In this document: in pieces, positions 2,790 to 11,616 of the stretch
Layout of the letters: every line of letters starts with the position of its first letter
How positions within the stretch are numbered: the stretch's first letter is position 1
NCBI GenBank assembly: GCA_014058405.1
Contig: CP047423.1
Location: 3,146,501-3,210,500 of the forward strand
Direction: 5' to 3'
DNA length: 64,000 nt
From: Candidatus Nitrospira kreftii
Lineage (GTDB): Bacteria; Nitrospirota; Nitrospiria; Nitrospirales; Nitrospiraceae
Program-made: the position numbers and the translations under genes
The notes under the pieces: model-generated
Database searches by the model: none
What the model was told of the DNA's origin: nothing
What the model saw: the letters and a program-made list of their open reading frames with translations, nothing else

Positions 2790-3413
2790 CTAGTGCGCTT
2801 GTGCAATCGCTAATGGAGCAGATCCGGCCGCTTGGACCGGGGCTGGCGATGCCTGGCCCGGCATTTCGAGTTCCGACGTGCTGACGGAGATCGGCTCACC
2901 GCTCATTTGCTGTAAAAACGCGATAACGGCCAAGATTTCATTCTTCGAGAGTCCGATCGGATCCTTGTCGATCGCGGGCATCGTTGCCGGATATTCCTTC
3001 GGCACACCCCCATGGCGGTAATCCTGATATACGAACGCCTGCGGATCAGTCAGGCTTTCATAGAGGAAGTCCTTGCTCAATTTGGCGCCGATCCCCTTTA
3101 AATCCGGACAACGGGCGGATTCACTTGGACCAATGGAATGACACAATGCGCATTGCCCCTTGCTGAAAAAGACAGTTTGTCCGATGGCTGCGATGTCCGT
3201 CGGGGTCTTGATACTGGCAATGTCGATCTTTTCCTCTGCCGGAGGGAGAGAGGCCAACTGCGGGACGGCGAGTGACATGAGCGAGAACAATCCCAACACA
3301 ATAGCAACAAACCCCGTGACCCGGAGAAACACAGCCTTGATGAACAGAAGGATCAGAATCCCGATCCCGACGATTGACAGTGCAATTAATTGTAATTGTG
3401 CGACTTCACCCAT
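2790..3413 (-). CDS. Membrane-anchored monoheme cytochrome c
   Basis: 207-residue protein with two N-terminal membrane helices (about residues 8-25 and 33-50), a linker, and a cytochrome c domain with heme site CALCH near residue 92. The distal methionine is probably in YPATMPAIDKD. The tail of about 30 residues is rich in Pro, Ala and Ser and looks disordered. GGAG precedes the ATG. It lies 58 bases downstream of bd-like subunit B and 9 bases upstream of the next cytochrome. The two-helix plus heme arrangement suits a fixed electron relay of a membrane complex rather than a soluble carrier. Confidence 0.87.
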   Translation of the reverse strand: MGEVAQLQLIALSIVGIGILILLFIKAVFLRVTGFVAIVLGLFSLMSLAVPQLASLPPAEEKIDIASIKTPTDIAAIGQTVFFSKGQCALCHSIGPSESARCPDLKGIGAKLSKDFLYESLTDPQAFVYQDYRHGGVPKEYPATMPAIDKDPIGLSKNEILAVIAFLQQMSGEPISVSTSELEMPGQASPAPVQAAGSAPLAIAQAH

Positions 3414-3471: not shown

Positions 3472-5331
3472 TTACGGCTGCCGCTCTTCCGGAGCCCCTC
3501 CGGCCATCGCCGGAATGCCGTGCGGCAGGTCTCCCTTTCCTGTTCCAGAAGCGGCCTTGTATTTATCGCCCATGGTAGCAACCCAGAAGATAAATGCGAC
3601 GAGGATACAGAAGAAGAATGTGCAGAATGCCATAATCAGCGAGGCGCTGCCGAGAGCCGGCGAATAGGCATACGGGGACGTATCACGCATCACGCCATAC
3701 ACATGCCAATGCACGCGGGAAGAAGATCGCGCATATCCCATGAGCGTCATGAGGAGGATAACCATCACCGCATTGAGGACGAGCGCATACCCGGCGCGCG
3801 GAGGCATACTCCCCCAGACCATCTCCGTCGTCGTCTTGGCACTTTTGAGCAAGAGCGCCGTCAACGGCGTGATCGTGAGAATGACGAAGCCAACGATCGC
3901 CACCTGCGATGTGGAGAAATAATTAATGCGAACGATCGCCGGCACAAAATACCCCCACACTCCAAGGACAATGACAGCAAGACTCGCCACCACCAACACA
4001 GCACCCATCACTGCTTTTCCAAACTTCGCCCACCCCGCTGTATCCTGTTTCCCCGCCCGCCAATACATCACGAAGCTCATGAAGGTAATAAGAATCATGA
4101 GGTTCGAGACCGTCATTTTGGCCGACATGACGCCTAAGACTCCTAGTAAGGGATGGTGAGCACCTCCCATTTTCTGGGCCTCTTCAATGCTGGCCACAAG
4201 CGAGTGTGGCGTCATCCACACGGCAAGGCACAGCAAGAGGCTGACTAACATCATCAACATGGCTCGGCGATACTTCGCTTCCGATCCGGGAATGCGATAG
4301 GTAATCCCGAGCCAGAAATAATAGTTCGATCCAAGGAACAAAACCCCGATCAGCATGGCCTGGATGATGAAGAGCCAGGAGAGGAATCCTCCCATCAGTG
4401 TAATGCCCATCTGTTGGTTGTACTGATAGATTTCCCGCATGAGCCAATATCCGGCAAAAGGCAAGGCCAGCAGACCGAATACGCCGATAAAGTTCCCGAC
4501 ATACCCCATCCAATCGTAATGCTCCCGATCTTCCTTACCTTTGACCGATAAGTACCGAACTCCGGCATAGGCTCCGCAGATGTACCCCCCAAGCACCACG
4601 TTGGCGATGAGCCGATGAATGTTGATCGGCCACCAGGTTGGATTCCACGTCGCAGCCCAAGCCCGCTCAAAGGCCGTCCCTTCGGAAAGTACAACTGGGC
4701 TGGATTGGAACGTGGCCCAGGCGTTGGGCACGATCATAATGAACAAGGCGAAGAAGTTGAGAAGAAACCCGAGAAAGACATGCAACGTTTTTTTCCTGCC
4801 ATCCTGCATCGCATCCCACCCATACCAATAGAGATAGAGGGTCGCCGTTTCGAGCAGGAACAACAGGCAGTAGAGTAAAAACGACGGAAAGAAGACGTCC
4901 GTCAAATAATTCATCAGCTTGGGATAGAACGCCACCAACAGAAACAAGAGAATACCGCCGAACAAGGCGGTTGTGGCATAGGCTGAAGTCAGAAGCTTGG
5001 TAAACTCCTTGGCGAGCTTGTCATATCGCTTCTCCCCTCCTCGCCATGCAATGACCTCACAGAGCCACGCGAAGATCGGCACACCTAGGACAAACCCAGC
5101 GAGTAAGAGATGGAGTTGTGCAACAATCCAGACCAGATTGCGGCTTCCGATATATGGGATATCTCGATACTCCGTCGGACCAGCCGCCGTCCCCTCTGCT
5201 GCGATGCCGATCGAAGGGAGCGCCAGCCAGGCCGCCGTCAACAAGAGACCTGCAACCCATCCGCCGTGGCTTTTGACGGTCCGGAGAGCTGGCTGAATCA
5301 TTTCCGTCTCTTGTCGTATGACACTCACCAC
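3472..5331 (-). CDS. Cytochrome bd-like oxidase subunit I homologue (subunit B of the locus)
   Basis: Polytopic membrane protein of 619 residues with about 13-14 helices, distantly like CydA. Candidate heme ligands are His74 in the first core helix (IVAQLHLLLAG), Glu161 in a helix reading LLFLLETATLYLY, His184 and His239 (NIHRLIANVV). The same four residues recur in the paralogue at 9301-11004. The GRQPW signature and long Q-loop of canonical CydA are absent and no cydB is present, so it is not an ordinary quinol oxidase. The N-terminus carries an additional hydrophobic segment ending GIAAEG. The start is GTG at 5331 or 5328 with GAGG upstream; an ATG at 5301 is an alternative. Nitrospira genomes are known to hold bd-like proteins proposed as terminal oxidases; whether this one reduces oxygen is inference. 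Confidence 0.82.
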   Translation of the reverse strand: MVSVIRQETEMIQPALRTVKSHGGWVAGLLLTAAWLALPSIGIAAEGTAAGPTEYRDIPYIGSRNLVWIVAQLHLLLAGFVLGVPIFAWLCEVIAWRGGEKRYDKLAKEFTKLLTSAYATTALFGGILLFLLVAFYPKLMNYLTDVFFPSFLLYCLLFLLETATLYLYWYGWDAMQDGRKKTLHVFLGFLLNFFALFIMIVPNAWATFQSSPVVLSEGTAFERAWAATWNPTWWPINIHRLIANVVLGGYICGAYAGVRYLSVKGKEDREHYDWMGYVGNFIGVFGLLALPFAGYWLMREIYQYNQQMGITLMGGFLSWLFIIQAMLIGVLFLGSNYYFWLGITYRIPGSEAKYRRAMLMMLVSLLLCLAVWMTPHSLVASIEEAQKMGGAHHPLLGVLGVMSAKMTVSNLMILITFMSFVMYWRAGKQDTAGWAKFGKAVMGAVLVVASLAVIVLGVWGYFVPAIVRINYFSTSQVAIVGFVILTITPLTALLLKSAKTTTEMVWGSMPPRAGYALVLNAVMVILLMTLMGYARSSSRVHWHVYGVMRDTSPYAYSPALGSASLIMAFCTFFFCILVAFIFWVATMGDKYKAASGTGKGDLPHGIPAMAGGAPEERQP

Positions 5332-5344
5332 ATCACCTCGTAAG

Positions 5345-6346
5345 TTACGGTTTCGTCTTGGCCGTTGAATCTGCAGTTATTCCACTCTCGGTCTTTCCCT
5401 TGCCCTTTGCTTTTTGACCTTTTGTGGCCACCTTTTGCTGCTCCATGGCTTCAATTTTGGCCGCAAGCGTCGCAACGCGCTGCGCACTGCTGCTCAACGA
5501 CTCGACCGGTTTAAATACCGGCTCGACCTGTACGTCAGGTTTTTTACAGCATTCATGCGGATGGGGAGTCGTCACGGGAAGTATCGCCCAAAACATCAGA
5601 GAGAACACGACACCCACACCTACCAGTGACGTCAAGAGCAATCCTTGATCGGTTGGCACACGCATGAGGTCCCACCGGGTAATGAGTCCTTGATAACTTT
5701 CTGAAGTCGGTTGGCAATCTTCCGATATGCGCCGAACGATTTGTCCAAAAATGGATACTCCAATCAAAGATAACGCGATGAGCACGGCTGAAGAGATCGA
5801 GCCCCAGATTGTCAATTCAAGGCCGATTCGTTCTGCCACCGGAAGCCCCGTATCCGTAAGGTGCCTTAAACTCTCCATTTCGGCCATCGAGTGCGATGCG
5901 GTCATCGCGTTATCCGTTATGAAGCTCACAATACCCCAGAGGATCGGGAGGAAGAAGGCTCCAACCAGAGCCGCTCTCCACCAAATGGCAAGTCCAAGTC
6001 CATCCGGCGGTTCTTTCCGTAGTCGCTCAAGGAAAAACGTACGACCTACCAGACCGAGCGCCCAAATATCGACCGGAATCGAGAGCCAGAACAGGATCTC
6101 GAGGCCGATTCCTTCGCCAAAGTGCGCGCCAAACAAGGCCATGAGGATTGGAATCGCAAAGACCGTGACCGGACTGACCAGCAGCATAACGACGGCAAGC
6201 CCAAATCTGCCTTCAAAATGCACCAATCCCATCGTCAAGAGAAGAACGGCAAAGACCGATTTCACCACCATACCGGTCCAGCAGGCGGACCAGAGGATGC
6301 TGAAACCTATCTTCGTCGGAGACATTGACTCGCGTTCTTCAGCCAT
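5345..6346 (-). CDS. Unrecognised multi-pass membrane protein of the respiratory operon
   Basis: 333 residues with about seven or eight predicted membrane helices and a charged, Lys/Ala-rich tail of about 70 residues. I do not recognise a family. Features that stand out are conserved-looking acidic and aromatic residues within the helices, a loop with HPHECCKKP after the last helix that contains two adjacent cysteines and two histidines and could bind a metal, and a final stretch likely to be coiled or disordered. It lies 18 bases after cytochrome b and 13 bases before bd-like subunit B, so it is very likely a structural subunit. It could take the place of a cytochrome b C-terminal section or of CydB, but no sequence signature supports either. 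Confidence 0.8.
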   Translation of the reverse strand: MAEERESMSPTKIGFSILWSACWTGMVVKSVFAVLLLTMGLVHFEGRFGLAVVMLLVSPVTVFAIPILMALFGAHFGEGIGLEILFWLSIPVDIWALGLVGRTFFLERLRKEPPDGLGLAIWWRAALVGAFFLPILWGIVSFITDNAMTASHSMAEMESLRHLTDTGLPVAERIGLELTIWGSISSAVLIALSLIGVSIFGQIVRRISEDCQPTSESYQGLITRWDLMRVPTDQGLLLTSLVGVGVVFSLMFWAILPVTTPHPHECCKKPDVQVEPVFKPVESLSSSAQRVATLAAKIEAMEQQKVATKGQKAKGKGKTESGITADSTAKTKP

Positions 6347-6364
6347 AACGAATGGGGACCTGCA

Positions 6365-7507
6365 TTAATCCAAGAACTCTCGGTTGATCACTGAGGCAAC
6401 CGTGAACAACACAATAACCACCATGATTGCGATCCAGCTGATCAAGGCAATCGGTCGTTTAAAGATATTCCGCTCCGGATCCTTATCGAAGAACGGAAGG
6501 GCCACGAGCAATGCCATGAAGATGACCGGCACCACAACCGCCCCCAGCAATTGCCCGAACTCGCCGGCAAAAATTTTCAACCTCAGAAGCTGGAAATAGA
6601 ACAGAAAATACCATTCCGGTTCGGGATGGTACTCCCCAGGGTCAGGGGCAGCTTGGTCCAGTAGGACGACCGGCTCCCAAAGGGCTAATGCGCAGATTCC
6701 GGCAAAGACGAAAGCCATCCCGACCATATCCTTCCAAATTTGACGGGGGAAGAAGTAGTCGGTCTTAGCTTTGATCTCTTCCTTCGTACCGCTAAACGGT
6801 CCGGCAGGAGCCGCCACCCGAAACAAAAACAAATGGAGCCCGGCTAGCGCCATAAGCGCTGCCGGAAGAATCATCACATGGAGGACGAAAAAGCGGCTCA
6901 ACGTCATCTGACCAGGAGTCGGTCCTCCTTTGAGAAATCTGGCAATAAAGTCACCGAGAATAGGCGTTTTATCCAAGATTTCAACGCCCACTGTCGTTGC
7001 CCAAAATGCTCGTTGATCCCAGGGTAAAAGGTAACCTGTAAAGCCAAAGGTGATTACAATACCAAACAAAGCTAAGCCGACAAGCCAGAGCAATTCTCTT
7101 GGTTTTTTATATGCCCCCCAGAGAAAGACTTGAGACATATGAGCCACGACACAGACCACCATCGCGCTGGATCCCCAGAAGTGATAGCCCAGTAGAAACC
7201 ACCCATAATCAACGTCATGGATAATATATTGGGTGCTGTCATACGCATGGTCTGTGGTGGGGACATAATAAAACATCAGCAGAGTACCCGTCAGCGCCTG
7301 CATGGCAAAGATAAACAATAGGATTGAGCCGAAGACATAGGCCCAACGGGAACCGCCTGGAATCGGTTCATTGAGCATCTTGGCCTGCATTTCCTTGAGT
7401 CCAACCCGTTCGTCAAGGAAGGCAACGAGCTTTTCGATCGTGCTAGGCTGATGATCAGGGATTGCTGCAGGGGACGAGTGTTTACTATCCATATCGCTAG
7501 ATTTCAC
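6365..7507 (-). CDS. Cytochrome b of a bc1/b6f-type complex
   Basis: 380-residue diheme cytochrome b that oxidises quinol together with the Rieske protein. Heme b ligand pairs are His109/His123 (13 residues between) and His210/His225 (14 between). The 14-residue spacing in the second pair is the cytochrome b6 form rather than the mitochondrial form. The Qo motif PEWY lies at residues 297-300, so b6-like and subunit IV-like parts are fused in one chain. There is an N-terminal extension of about 50 polar residues and about eight helices. The ATG overlaps the Rieske stop by four bases (translational coupling). No separate petD or cytochrome c1 gene follows; the membrane cytochromes c of this operon presumably replace c1. 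Confidence 0.93.
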   Translation of the reverse strand: MKSSDMDSKHSSPAAIPDHQPSTIEKLVAFLDERVGLKEMQAKMLNEPIPGGSRWAYVFGSILLFIFAMQALTGTLLMFYYVPTTDHAYDSTQYIIHDVDYGWFLLGYHFWGSSAMVVCVVAHMSQVFLWGAYKKPRELLWLVGLALFGIVITFGFTGYLLPWDQRAFWATTVGVEILDKTPILGDFIARFLKGGPTPGQMTLSRFFVLHVMILPAALMALAGLHLFLFRVAAPAGPFSGTKEEIKAKTDYFFPRQIWKDMVGMAFVFAGICALALWEPVVLLDQAAPDPGEYHPEPEWYFLFYFQLLRLKIFAGEFGQLLGAVVVPVIFMALLVALPFFDKDPERNIFKRPIALISWIAIMVVIVLFTVASVINREFLD

Positions 7508-8439
7508 ACGATCCGCACTTGTGCTTTTGTACCGGCCTTGAACTCCATGTCGATGATCTCAACCTCGCCACTCACGGAGATCCGCACGGGCAACGCGTCA
7601 AGGGCGCGCGGAGCCGGGCCATCCAACACGTTTCCTGCCGCATCATAAATACTCAAATGGCACGGACAAAGGAACACCGGGCCGAGGGCTTTATGGTTTC
7701 GCCACTTGTATGCACATCCGAGATGCGGGCATTTACCGGAAAACGCGACGTACGGAATCTCCTTCTTATTGGTCCAGATAACGGTCCCCTTGGCGTCACG
7801 GAATTCTTCATCTTTTCCCTGATAGACCTTCTCGAGAAGCTCGGGAGTCGCGCGCACGACCCAGACGTTCTTCTCAACTTCATATTCGGGCATGTACACT
7901 TCCTTCACTTTTTTCTTGTACTCGAACTGTACCCCGACATCCTCTTTCTTGATCTTGCTTACGTTTCCCACGTTCAGCCATTGGTTGTCAAAATCCGCGT
8001 ACATGGGCTTCATGAGATAACGAAGAATGGGATAGGCTATGGGCAGTCCGATCAAGAACCCGATGACATGAGTAAAATTCATGAAAAACGTGCGGCGCTT
8101 GACGCTCTTTTCAAGGTCAGGCAGAGGTACCAACACCTCCCCTGGCGTGACATGGATATTGTCTTCGAGATGTGAGATCTCCACTTCATGCGTGGTGACG
8201 TAGTCTGCTCGCTTAAACGGCGGCAATGCCAAAATATCTCGTGATGGCGTACCTAGCTGCACGAGATCTTCCGTCACAGCCTGCACATGGTCCATCGCAA
8301 CTTGCCGCTCGCCGTTGCCGTTCATCGACACCACGATATGACTGATCTCGTGGGAGAACGGATCAAGCACAACCTTCGAGACTTCGCCGATGTCGAGGTC
8401 CGTGCACCGGACTTTGGATTTCAGCTTTGGCTGCAGCAT
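7504..8439 (-). CDS. Rieske iron-sulfur protein with N-terminal PRC-barrel-like domain
   Basis: 311-residue Rieske subunit of the bc-type complex. The C-terminal domain carries both cluster motifs: C237PH239LGC242 and C258PC260H261LS. Cys237, His239, Cys258 and His261 bind the 2Fe-2S cluster and Cys242/Cys260 form the disulfide. A single membrane helix spans about residues 119-143. Ahead of it lie about 100 residues (KVRCTDLDIGEVSKVVLDP and on) that look like a PRC-barrel, a domain unusual in Rieske proteins, which would lie in the cytoplasm. An insertion rich in charged residues (about 150-225) separates the helix from the cluster. The start shares one base with the preceding stop (TAATG), and the stop overlaps the cytochrome b start. 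Confidence 0.92.
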   Translation of the reverse strand: MLQPKLKSKVRCTDLDIGEVSKVVLDPFSHEISHIVVSMNGNGERQVAMDHVQAVTEDLVQLGTPSRDILALPPFKRADYVTTHEVEISHLEDNIHVTPGEVLVPLPDLEKSVKRRTFFMNFTHVIGFLIGLPIAYPILRYLMKPMYADFDNQWLNVGNVSKIKKEDVGVQFEYKKKVKEVYMPEYEVEKNVWVVRATPELLEKVYQGKDEEFRDAKGTVIWTNKKEIPYVAFSGKCPHLGCAYKWRNHKALGPVFLCPCHLSIYDAAGNVLDGPAPRALDALPVRISVSGEVEIIDMEFKAGTKAQVRIV

Positions 8440-9248
8440 TATTTCTTCTTGATAGGCTTCGGGGTATTCACTGAGGTATTCTTGAAGGTTCCCAACCAGG
8501 TGGCGAGCGCCAACATTTCTTTGGGGTCCATGAGATCCTTAAACTTGTCTGGCATCACGCCCTTCTGCCATTCCTTATCATACCCCTCAGCCATGAAACT
8601 CTTGGGGTCTACAATTTTCTGTTGAATTTCTTCGATCGTCAGCAGTGTGCCGATGTTATCAAGTTCAGGACCTCGCTTCTTTCCACCCTCACCCCTGAGT
8701 TTGTGGCAGTTGTAACATTCCTGCAATTGCCACTGCTCTTCACCTATCTTCAGCACATCACCTGCGGCACCCCCACCTCCCCCGGTTCCTGCGGGAGGCT
8801 TATCTCCAATGGGAGGTGTCGGCGCGGCTGTTGCAACTTGACTCCCACCCAAACCTTTAAGCCGTTCTTCGAGAGCTTTTACCTGCTCATCAAGCGCCTT
8901 GGCACGAGCGATCAACTCGTCTGCCTTCCCCTGCTGGGAGCCGGCTCGTTGCTTTTCCAAAAGCTTGGAAATTTTTTCCCGCTCATCTTCCGGATCAAAC
9001 TGAGGCAACAGAGAGGCCCCGGCGATGCAGACCGTCACGATGAAGATCCAGAACGCGGCGACCGCCAGGAACGACTTCCCACCGCTCATCGTCGCAAGCG
9101 GTTTGGCATCGAGCAACATAAATACCAGGGCCCCGATCATCGCAAAAATTGCCCACAGCAGCTGAAAGTCGGACGGTACTTCTTGCGAATGAGCGAACGC
9201 CACGACCGCTCCACCAACCAACAACGCAATGCCAAATTTCTTAAACAC
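8439..9248 (-). CDS. Membrane cytochrome c with coiled-coil and Gly/Pro linker
   Basis: 269-residue protein. Three hydrophobic helices at about residues 5-20, 30-47 and 60-82 anchor it. A charged coiled coil follows (DPEDEREKISKLLEKQ to KALEERLKGLG, about 85-135), then a flexible Pro/Gly/Ala linker, then a monoheme cytochrome c domain with CYNCH near residue 178 and probable Met ligands in GVMPDKFKDLM. The build is a fixed anchor with a swinging heme domain, as expected of a subunit that replaces cytochrome c1 and accepts electrons from the Rieske protein encoded next. It lies 52 bases after bd-like subunit A. Confidence 0.88.
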   Translation of the reverse strand: MFKKFGIALLVGGAVVAFAHSQEVPSDFQLLWAIFAMIGALVFMLLDAKPLATMSGGKSFLAVAAFWIFIVTVCIAGASLLPQFDPEDEREKISKLLEKQRAGSQQGKADELIARAKALDEQVKALEERLKGLGGSQVATAAPTPPIGDKPPAGTGGGGGAAGDVLKIGEEQWQLQECYNCHKLRGEGGKKRGPELDNIGTLLTIEEIQQKIVDPKSFMAEGYDKEWQKGVMPDKFKDLMDPKEMLALATWLGTFKNTSVNTPKPIKKK

Positions 9249-9300
9249 GATCCACCTTCTGGATGCTGATAAAACTTACCACCAATGCGATGACTCCGAC

Positions 9301-11004
9301 TTACTTCGCTCCAACAGGGATGGGATTCACCTCCGGCTCGCGCACTTTTGAAACGGATGGCCGGAGCGCCACCAGCGCGGCCAGCGTGACAATGACAAGA
9401 AAGCTGACGGTAATCCCGGTAATCCACCAGGCAGAATAGGAAAGCGTCGGCGTAAATGACTCCACCGTAAAGTCTGACACCAGGCTGTAGGCATGGAAGT
9501 ATTTCTTGAGTAATGACCTGACGGCTCCCATCAATCCCATGATCCAGGTAGAGATAAACGCCAAAAAAATCAGGACGAATTGCGCGACAAAATCAATTTT
9601 GCCCCACAGAATCGTCCCCTGCTTGATGGTCTTGTTGTAGAGAACATAATTGACGACAGTCACGAATACCAACACGATGATCGCGGAGAGCTTGGCCGGC
9701 ATCGACGCGAGATAATCCCATCCTTCCGGCAGCTTCAGCTCATCGGGCATATCACTGCCAGTGGCCACGAAACCACTGGGAGTAAGCCACACCGCGTCGC
9801 TGATGAGCATCACGATAAAGCCGATCTTGATGACAGTCCGAGCAGAAACGGTCACGGAAACCAATCGCCCCAATAGGAATGGTGACAAGACCAGGGGCAA
9901 CAAGAAGGCCAATGACATCGGATCAGGGATCCAGTAGGTATTCATCACCCACATCGTCACCGGAAGCAAGGCAATCAGGACAATGGGAGCCAGGATCGTC
10001 ATCCGCACTTTTTCAGCACCCTCGATTCGCTTCACGCTGAGCCAACTATAGTAGTTGATCGCTAAGAATAGTAGCCCGATCATCATTCCCTGCACCTCAA
10101 AAAACATCGAGAGCTGATCGGCCATCATGTAAGGACAGAAAGAAAAATCGTAATCACACATTTCATAGGCCAGCAACAGCCCCGTGAACGGCTGTAAGAG
10201 CGATCCCCCCACCGCAATCCAAATCGCGACGAAGCCCATCCAATCATAATAGGCTCGCTCTTCTTGCGTCTTCGATCCCATATACATGTAGGCGGCGATC
10301 ATACCGGCAATAAACCCACCGAACGCGACATTGCCGTCGATCCTATGCAGACTGAGTGGGAACCAGCTTTGATTCGCAATTTTATCCCACAAGGTCGCCG
10401 CCGCGAGGAAATCCTGAGGCGAGATCCCCTCAGCCTTTGGTGGAGTGTTCATGAACGACGTGGGGCCATTGATCACAAAAAGAATGAGCAAACAGACAAG
10501 ATTCAAGACTATGCCTAGCGCGATATGTCGCCCCTTCTTTTCACCTTTCCAGACATCCCAGGTATAGAGATAGGCATACATGAGAATGGTCTCTACGATG
10601 AACAGAGCCGGATAGAGGATCGCGAAGACGACATAGAATTGATTGATGAACCAGGTTGTGAATTGAGGATAGGCTGCCAGAAGGATAAAAATGAATAAGC
10701 CTCCGGTCACAGCCGTCATACTAAAAAGGATAACCGTGACTTTGGTGATCTCTTTGGCCATACGATCGTAGCGTGGGTCTTGCTTGCGATAGCCCAGCCA
10801 CTCAGATATGACAACGAAAATCGGGGCTCCCAGAATGAAAGCGGCGAATAAGATATGGAGTTGCGCGACAACCCAGACAGCCGTCCGATTGCCTGTGTAT
10901 GGAAAATCCACCGAAGACGCTCCAAGCTCCTGGGCGTAGACGGCAGGCACAACACACACACCAAGCGCGACAAGAGCTAGGAGACTATTCCACATTTTTT
11001 TCAC
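9301..11004 (-). CDS. Cytochrome bd-like oxidase subunit I homologue (subunit A of the locus)
   Basis: 567-residue polytopic membrane protein with a cleavable-looking signal segment (to AVYAQE) and about 13-14 helices. It is a paralogue of the protein at 3472-5331; both have a near-identical first core helix (VWVVAQLHILFAAFILGAP here) and an RYD-AKE-TK loop. Candidate heme ligands are His50, Glu139, His160 and His220, aligned with His74, Glu161, His184 and His239 of the other copy. The canonical CydA GRQPW motif and Q-loop are lacking. Several Met and Cys residues in one loop (AYEMCDYDFSFCPYMM) are absent from the other copy and could bind metal. The start is GTG at 11004 with GAGG upstream; ATG at 10995 is possible. 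Confidence 0.83.
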   Translation of the reverse strand: MKKMWNSLLALVALGVCVVPAVYAQELGASSVDFPYTGNRTAVWVVAQLHILFAAFILGAPIFVVISEWLGYRKQDPRYDRMAKEITKVTVILFSMTAVTGGLFIFILLAAYPQFTTWFINQFYVVFAILYPALFIVETILMYAYLYTWDVWKGEKKGRHIALGIVLNLVCLLILFVINGPTSFMNTPPKAEGISPQDFLAAATLWDKIANQSWFPLSLHRIDGNVAFGGFIAGMIAAYMYMGSKTQEERAYYDWMGFVAIWIAVGGSLLQPFTGLLLAYEMCDYDFSFCPYMMADQLSMFFEVQGMMIGLLFLAINYYSWLSVKRIEGAEKVRMTILAPIVLIALLPVTMWVMNTYWIPDPMSLAFLLPLVLSPFLLGRLVSVTVSARTVIKIGFIVMLISDAVWLTPSGFVATGSDMPDELKLPEGWDYLASMPAKLSAIIVLVFVTVVNYVLYNKTIKQGTILWGKIDFVAQFVLIFLAFISTWIMGLMGAVRSLLKKYFHAYSLVSDFTVESFTPTLSYSAWWITGITVSFLVIVTLAALVALRPSVSKVREPEVNPIPVGAK

Positions 11005-11124: not shown

Positions 11125-11616
11125 TCATTTATCACTCGCATCCATCCACTGTTTCTTTTCTTCATTCCACATTTTTCCTGACAATCCAAAGTTACGCTCG
11201 TACAATACAAGCTTCCATACGTCATCCTCTGAGAGCTTACTCTTCCAACCCTTCATCTTGGTATTGGGAACTCCCTCGGAGATACGCCAAAACCAGACTG
11301 AATCGGAATACAACTTCATGCGCTCAGGATTTCTGAAATCTGTGGCCCCAGATTTTACAGGCTTCCCGTCACTCCCGTGACAGCTGGCACATTTCACATC
11401 TGGATTTGCCTCACCAAGGTAGAGCTTTCGGCCCTCTTCCAGTTTCTGAGCATCCCCCCACCAGTCGGGCGGCATATGCCTATCGGCATATTCTGCTGGT
11501 GCCGGAGGCGGCGGAACGATTGGCCCCTCTTCACCACCTTGAGTACAACCTGATAGAAACCCGATACTCATGGCCGCCAATATCGTCCGTCTACACGCCA
11601 ATTTTAATAACATCAC
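11125..11616 (-). CDS. Lipoprotein monoheme cytochrome c, first gene of the respiratory operon
   Basis: 163 residues. The signal peptide ends in the lipobox LSGC, predicting lipid attachment at Cys24. A Pro-rich linker is followed by a class I cytochrome c domain with CASCH near residue 77 and a likely Met ligand in NTKMKGW. The SVWFWRISEG segment resembles the cytochrome at 2064-2780. It lies 120 bases upstream of bd-like subunit A and about 40 bases below a candidate promoter. A mobile lipid-tethered cytochrome at the head of the operon could bring electrons in from, or hand them to, the bd-like subunits. Confidence 0.87.
   Translation of the reverse strand: MMLLKLACRRTILAAMSIGFLSGCTQGGEEGPIVPPPPAPAEYADRHMPPDWWGDAQKLEEGRKLYLGEANPDVKCASCHGSDGKPVKSGATDFRNPERMKLYSDSVWFWRISEGVPNTKMKGWKSKLSEDDVWKLVLYERNFGLSGKMWNEEKKQWMDASDK

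Follow-up and report, generated by a model that had tools for sequence, protein, structure and literature searches.

A 64,000-nucleotide stretch of Candidatus Nitrospira kreftii (contig CP047423.1, positions 3,146,501 to 3,210,500; the window below), part of a 4.13-Mb genome whose closest named relatives are Nitrospira, encodes two cytochrome bd-like membrane proteins within a cluster of eleven genes that all lie on the minus strand. The two open reading frames (ORFs), P0001 (3472-5331, minus) and P0002 (9301-11004, minus), are located where a first-pass annotation had placed them. Our best explanation, to which we give an even chance as a whole, is that P0001 and P0002 belong to the OR-N branch of the cytochrome bd superfamily and separated from each other long ago, that P0001 and the monohaem c-type cytochrome cytc_C (2790-3413, minus, CALCH) would form an oxidase, and that P0002 would not be an obligate CydA' subunit of P0001. 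The evidence includes fusions of P0001-type proteins to cytc_C orthologues, incomplete co-occurrence of the two clades, and the residues retained relative to E. coli CydA.

Family, fold and trees

Both proteins exceeded the cut-off of the Pfam CydA model (PF01654, 26.2 bits), at 48.5 bits for P0001 and 85.9 bits for P0002, and the earlier statement that they lack CydA signatures was therefore too strong. The same model was matched by 19 of 19 rows of A2, while the COX1 profile was matched by neither protein and no NCBIfam model was found for P0001, P0002 or the 333-residue membrane protein of the cluster. P0001 and P0002 are full-length homologues (496 aligned columns, HH E-value 3e-119), with the four residues singled out in the first-pass annotation in register. 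Canonical CydA proteins were the sole relatives in a PDB sequence search, the rows below them being weak and unrelated.

The ten best PDB matches to each AlphaFold2 model were all CydA-type chains. For the P0001 model (pLDDT 81.4, 33 rows) these had Z scores of 24.8 to 21.9, led by 5doq_A (Z 24.8, 354 residues, 3.8 A), and alternative complex III subunits followed at 15.6. For the P0002 model (pLDDT 71.6, 19 rows, moderate quality) the range was 27.9 to 25.1, led by 7ose_A (Z 27.9, 349 residues, 4.2 A), with alternative complex III subunits next at 22.6.

A careful tree of 46 rows placed P0001 in a clade of 12 rows and P0002 in a clade of 11 rows, each with 100/100 support. Both clades were inside a 39-row clade separate from the 7 canonical qOR CydA rows (100/100) in this tree, which contained no OR-C reference rows. 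A quick tree of 109 rows agreed, with a warning of long branches from the tool. Origin of the two as sister clades by local duplication was considered and found no support in the tree, though the approximately unbiased (AU) test did not reject it. The trees thus leave both proteins inside the bd family, where the first-pass annotation had put them (it had named a placement outside as refuting), and the Pfam and fold matches bear out the same assignment.

Residues retained relative to E. coli CydA

The first-pass annotation described a shared H-E-H-H ligand pattern in the two proteins. Its positions were exact for P0001 (H74, E161, H184, H239) and for the histidines of P0002 (H50, H160, H220), but the P0002 glutamate is E138, position 139 being a threonine. 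A profile alignment to E. coli CydA paired H19 with H74/H50, E99 with Y154/Y131, E107 with E161/E138, H126 with H184/H160 and H186 with H239/H220 (P0001/P0002). In the solved bd-II structure, His19 binds haem d, His186 and Met393 bind haem b558, Glu445 binds haem b595, and the distance between Glu99 and the iron of haem d is 5.1 A (PMC8585947). Two histidines of the pattern are therefore equivalent to known ligands, whereas the glutamate corresponds to Glu107, described as a proton donor (PMC13189123), and no role for E. coli H126, as a haem ligand or otherwise, was found in the excerpts of bd literature searched.

Conservation was counted over 42 P0001-clade and 34 P0002-clade rows. The three histidines of the pattern were invariant in both clades (42/42 and 34/34), far beyond chance, and the glutamate was kept in 37/42 and 26/34 rows, having been genuinely replaced by G, S or T in the others. 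Tyrosine occupied the E99 position in every row of both clades. Further invariant residues included H376, H392, H393, M402, K405, M528, M531, R535, R539 and H543 in the P0001 clade (42/42) and M435, K438, M489, M492, R496 and H504 in the P0002 clade. No acidic counterpart of E445 was present between M528 and R539 of P0001 or between M489 and H504 of P0002, and for the helix equivalent to that of Met393, which would supply the sixth ligand of the H239 haem, the mafft and HH alignments disagreed. The claim that the haem sites are retained therefore appears to hold in part only, because the E99 position is a tyrosine and E445 has no counterpart, although the two histidine ligands are kept.

Comparison with the E. 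coli protein upheld the loss of quinol signatures noted in the first-pass annotation. The GRQPW motif is absent from both proteins, and no Lys or Glu aligns with K252 or E257 of the Q-loop. The GRQPW-A region reads SRVHW-H in P0001 and is a KKYF-H-type stretch in P0002, and an invariant histidine occupies the former GRQPW region. In the P0001 model, helices 266-307 and 317-346 are predicted to be only about 9 residues apart. The histidine of the TPH motif is invariant in the P0001 clade (42/42) but is S410 in P0002, with histidine in 24 of the 34 P0002-clade rows and missing from the other 10. Because of this loss, P0001 seems more likely than P0002 to be the active oxidase subunit.

Cytochrome c as electron donor

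Thirteen of the 109 tree rows, all from the P0001 clade, bear a fused C-terminal monohaem cytochrome c domain. When these domains were compared with the eleven proteins of the window cluster, cytc_C was the best match in 13/13 (137-194 bits, 41-61% identity; runner-up at most 42.4 bits), and its assignment as the proposed P0001 donor subunit follows from this orthology. Among 95 P0001-clade gene copies (scanned loci, identity at least 55%, some loci from the same genomes), cytc_C was fused or at most 400 bases away in 93, the two exceptions being L064, where it was about 600 bases away, and L189, where the contig ends. Since a cytc_C orthologue is fused to P0001-type proteins and the gene is otherwise found beside them, cytc_C is probably a subunit or dedicated donor of P0001. 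A c-type cytochrome as the likely donor had been proposed in the first-pass annotation and is also the view taken in PMC10839748.

Two Nitrospira-type operons, at L176:8001-10373 and G129:C79:10518-12266, contained a longer P0001 gene just 63-64% identical, which in L176 includes the fused cytochrome c. These sequences suggest replacement of the single gene by a foreign copy. P0001-clade genes were also located on contigs titled Cyclobacteriaceae (L148, 96% identity), which looks like a mis-binned Nitrospira contig, and Gammaproteobacteria (L182, 61%).

Separability of the two clades

Co-occurrence was scored over 195 genomes of the phylum with clade membership taken from the trees. A P0001-clade gene was present in 79 genomes, a P0002-clade gene in 76 and both in 74. 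The P0001 clade occurred without the P0002 clade in 5/79 (G103, G121, G137, G145 and G147), and the reverse was observed in 2/76 (G167 and G012, the latter carrying other bd-like paralogues). Matches of 46-51% identity in G006, G016, G012 and G021 were excluded from the P0001 count on the basis of tree placement for G006 and G021 (L105, L063), likeness to L063 for G012, and identity alone for G016.

Other partners were located beside the separated genes. The P0001-type genes of G137, G145 and both G103 loci have large membrane proteins encoded next to them, and 6/6 of those tested matched the MrpD/NuoM profile PF00361, an association also described for the TO_2 complex of Ca. Manganitrophaceae (PMC9040806). 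The P0002-type gene in G167 and G012 adjoins genes for molybdopterin and 4Fe-4S subunits and for a two-haem cytochrome in which homologues of cytc_E and cytc_D, the cytochromes flanking P0002 in the window, are fused. P0002 with cytc_D and cytc_E, and P0001 with cytc_C and its neighbour cytc_B, would on these gene arrangements behave as two modules that Nitrospirales have joined in one operon.

The first-pass annotation proposed a heterodimer in place of CydA-CydB, and the published hypothesis is similar: P0001 and P0002 would form an OR-N1/OR-N2 CydAA' cytochrome c oxidase in which a catalytic CydA is paired with a haem-poor CydA' that replaces CydB (PMC12342949, PMC10839748). The loss of the TPH histidine from P0002 would fit such a subunit, and a Pfam scan of the eleven operon proteins identified no CydB. 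Several observations weigh against separate modules. As a heterodimer predicts, both clades were present in 71/71 Nitrospirales genomes in one operon, with G163 having both as contig-end fragments. The P0001-only genomes still encode other bd-like paralogues as possible partners, and with 94-99% completeness these five genomes may be incomplete. The P0002 model is of only moderate quality, and a single monophyletic group of the two clades is disfavoured yet not rejected (AU p 0.093). However, the 5/79 and 2/76 exceptions, the single CydA-like gene found at each of the loci L100, L101, L108, L109 and L064, and the separate cytochromes of each clade argue against the dimer as a general arrangement. 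We regard the CydAA' reading as possible but short of probable. An obligate P0001-P0002 pair is doubtful because some genomes have one clade only and because each clade is accompanied by cytochromes of its own and, outside this operon, by different partners; within Nitrospira the proposal is weakened rather than refuted, and contact between the proteins or a true CydAA' dimer could occur there.

It is also conceivable, if unlikely, that neither protein reduces O2 and that both serve as bd-like electron-transfer modules, for example in reverse flow from cytochrome c to quinone, with another enzyme as the oxidase. Loss of the E99 and E445 equivalents from both proteins and the molybdopterin enzymes adjoining P0002-like genes in G167 and G012 are consistent with such a role, and reverse electron flow has been proposed for other bd-like proteins (PMC3578206). 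The genome, however, had no haem-copper oxidase above cut-off, and the type to which its two canonical CydA genes belong showed weak expression in N. moscoviensis grown on nitrite, where expression of the bd-like_2 region was strong (PMC6606698). A haem-copper-like active site in P0001, after an earlier proposal of putative haem b and copper sites reported in PMC6606698, could draw on the extra invariant histidines H376, H392, H393 and H543 but is very improbable given the CydA-type fold and sequence.

Proposed mechanism

Under the two-module explanation, electrons from complex III (quinol) and/or nitrite oxidation would pass to cytc_C as a subunit of the P0001 complex, then to the H239-bound haem and on to a high-spin haem with H74 as its ligand, the putative site of O2 reduction. 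The invariant Y154 would stand beside haem d in the place of E. coli Glu99, and the invariant H543 is a possible stand-in for lost haem ligands. P0002, cytc_D and cytc_E would constitute another electron-transfer module with a bd fold, linked to complex III, and P0001 and P0002 may touch within a III-IV supercomplex.

A bolder version, which we consider rather unlikely, is that P0001 and its cytochrome c subunit make up a bd-fold cytochrome c oxidase independent of P0002, in which Y154 and the new histidine H543 would form the core of remodelled E99 and E445 sites and give a tyrosine-assisted O2 site. P0002 would then be a separate module that links complex III, or molybdenum enzymes in other bacteria, with two cytochromes c of its own. 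If true, one operon would put the bd fold to two different uses.

O2 reduction during nitrite oxidation in most Nitrospirales is assigned to the P0001-type protein by assumption, and biochemical demonstration for the OR-N enzymes was described as pending (PMC10839748). The naming of a probable cytochrome c subunit and the doubt over an obligate pair can guide the choice of co-purification partners, residues of interest include Y154, H376 and H543, and in the fused homologues the two parts come as one polypeptide that could be expressed.

The eleven-gene cluster

The gene order is cytc_E, P0002, cytc_D, Rieske protein, cytochrome b, mem333, P0001, cytc_C, cytc_B, EB_dh-type cytochrome and dihaem cytochrome, with neighbouring genes at most about 120 bases apart or overlapping. 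All are minus-strand genes. The first is cytc_E (11125-11616), a monohaem c-type cytochrome (CASCH) identified from Pfam Cytochrome_CBB3/Cytochrom_C matches, the CxxCH motif and synteny. Downstream of P0002 are cytc_D (8439-9248), a membrane-anchored monohaem c-type cytochrome (CYNCH; Pfam and synteny), the Rieske [2Fe-2S] protein of complex III (7504-8439; PF00355) and the complex III cytochrome b (6365-7507; PF00033 and PF00032). The membrane protein mem333 (5345-6346, 333 residues) is without an assigned family, having zero Pfam matches at E 0.1 and zero NCBIfam matches at E 0.01. Nitrospirales loci have it at the same position, flanked by cytochrome b and P0001 (32-89% identity), but L057-L059, which are loci from other classes, yielded no counterpart.

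Beyond P0001 and cytc_C are cytc_B (2064-2780), a monohaem c-type cytochrome (CSPCH; Pfam and synteny), and an EB_dh/DOMON periplasmic b-type cytochrome (1181-2032; PF09459) matching alt_nxrC_1 and lying where the description of N. moscoviensis puts that gene. The last gene encodes a dihaem c-type cytochrome (153-1301; CSDCH and CNGCH) supported by the ORF list, Pfam and synteny, and its real start is probably further downstream since the ORF overlaps the preceding EB_dh ORF.

Other oxidase-related genes of the genome

Two further bd-like paralogues of the bd-like_3/4 type were located at L093:6943-18615 (G000:C1 about 996943-1008615), accompanied by c-type cytochromes and by a fusion of EB_dh and c-type parts. 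Another pair of neighbouring CydA-like genes, both short (439 and 438 residues), at L094:6563-15125 (G000:C1 about 2262563-2271125) adjoins alternative complex III (ACIII) genes including ActD, NrfD, FeS, molybdopterin and multihaem c, and matches the OR-N5 CydAA' beside ACIII described in PMC12342949. A 465-residue ORF at L097:4340-5737 (G000:C1 about 2993340-2994737) gave a partial COX1 match of 29.2 bits against a cut-off of 34.8; either it encodes a divergent protein of haem-copper type or the match is spurious.

Comparison with known systems

The kind of protein, the locus and the heterodimer idea are already in print. A cluster of bd-like_1, complex III, bd-like_2 and alt_nxrC_1 has been described in N. 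moscoviensis, where its expression was high, and a III-IV supercomplex has been suggested (PMC6606698). N. defluvii (L131) and N. moscoviensis (L136) each have all eleven genes of the cluster in identical order, with identities of 77 and 84% for P0001 and 67 and 70% for P0002, and the window differs in nothing of substance from this Nitrospira bd-like_2/NIDE0901-like cluster. From its place and neighbours rather than a locus tag, we infer P0001 to be the equivalent of NIDE0901 and bd-like_2; NIDE0901-like proteins are OR-N2 (PMC12342949). P0002 is likely bd-like_1 and presumably OR-N1. To this known system the present analysis adds the fusion to cytochrome c, the exceptions to co-occurrence and a map of the haem ligands truly kept; no literature search was aimed at the fusion, the tyrosine substitution or the co-occurrence pattern, and no claim is made that these are missing from print.

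Canonical CydA shares the fold with P0001 and P0002, along with equivalents of H19, H126 and H186 in all rows of both clades and of E107 in most. It differs in having GRQPW, K252, E257 and E445, and E99 where both proteins have tyrosine; P0001 and P0002 in turn have extra helices, no CydB and c-type cytochromes as neighbours. A bd-like protein of Nitrospina has been described with a comparable loss of the Q-loop and quinol residues and with the N-terminal haem ligands kept (PMC3578206). In the TO_2 complex of Ca. Manganitrophaceae (PMC9040806), as at loci L100 and L101, b-type cytochromes and a pair of MrpD-like subunits accompany a bd-like protein, whereas the window operon has no MrpD-like gene and instead includes complex III and another bd-like protein.

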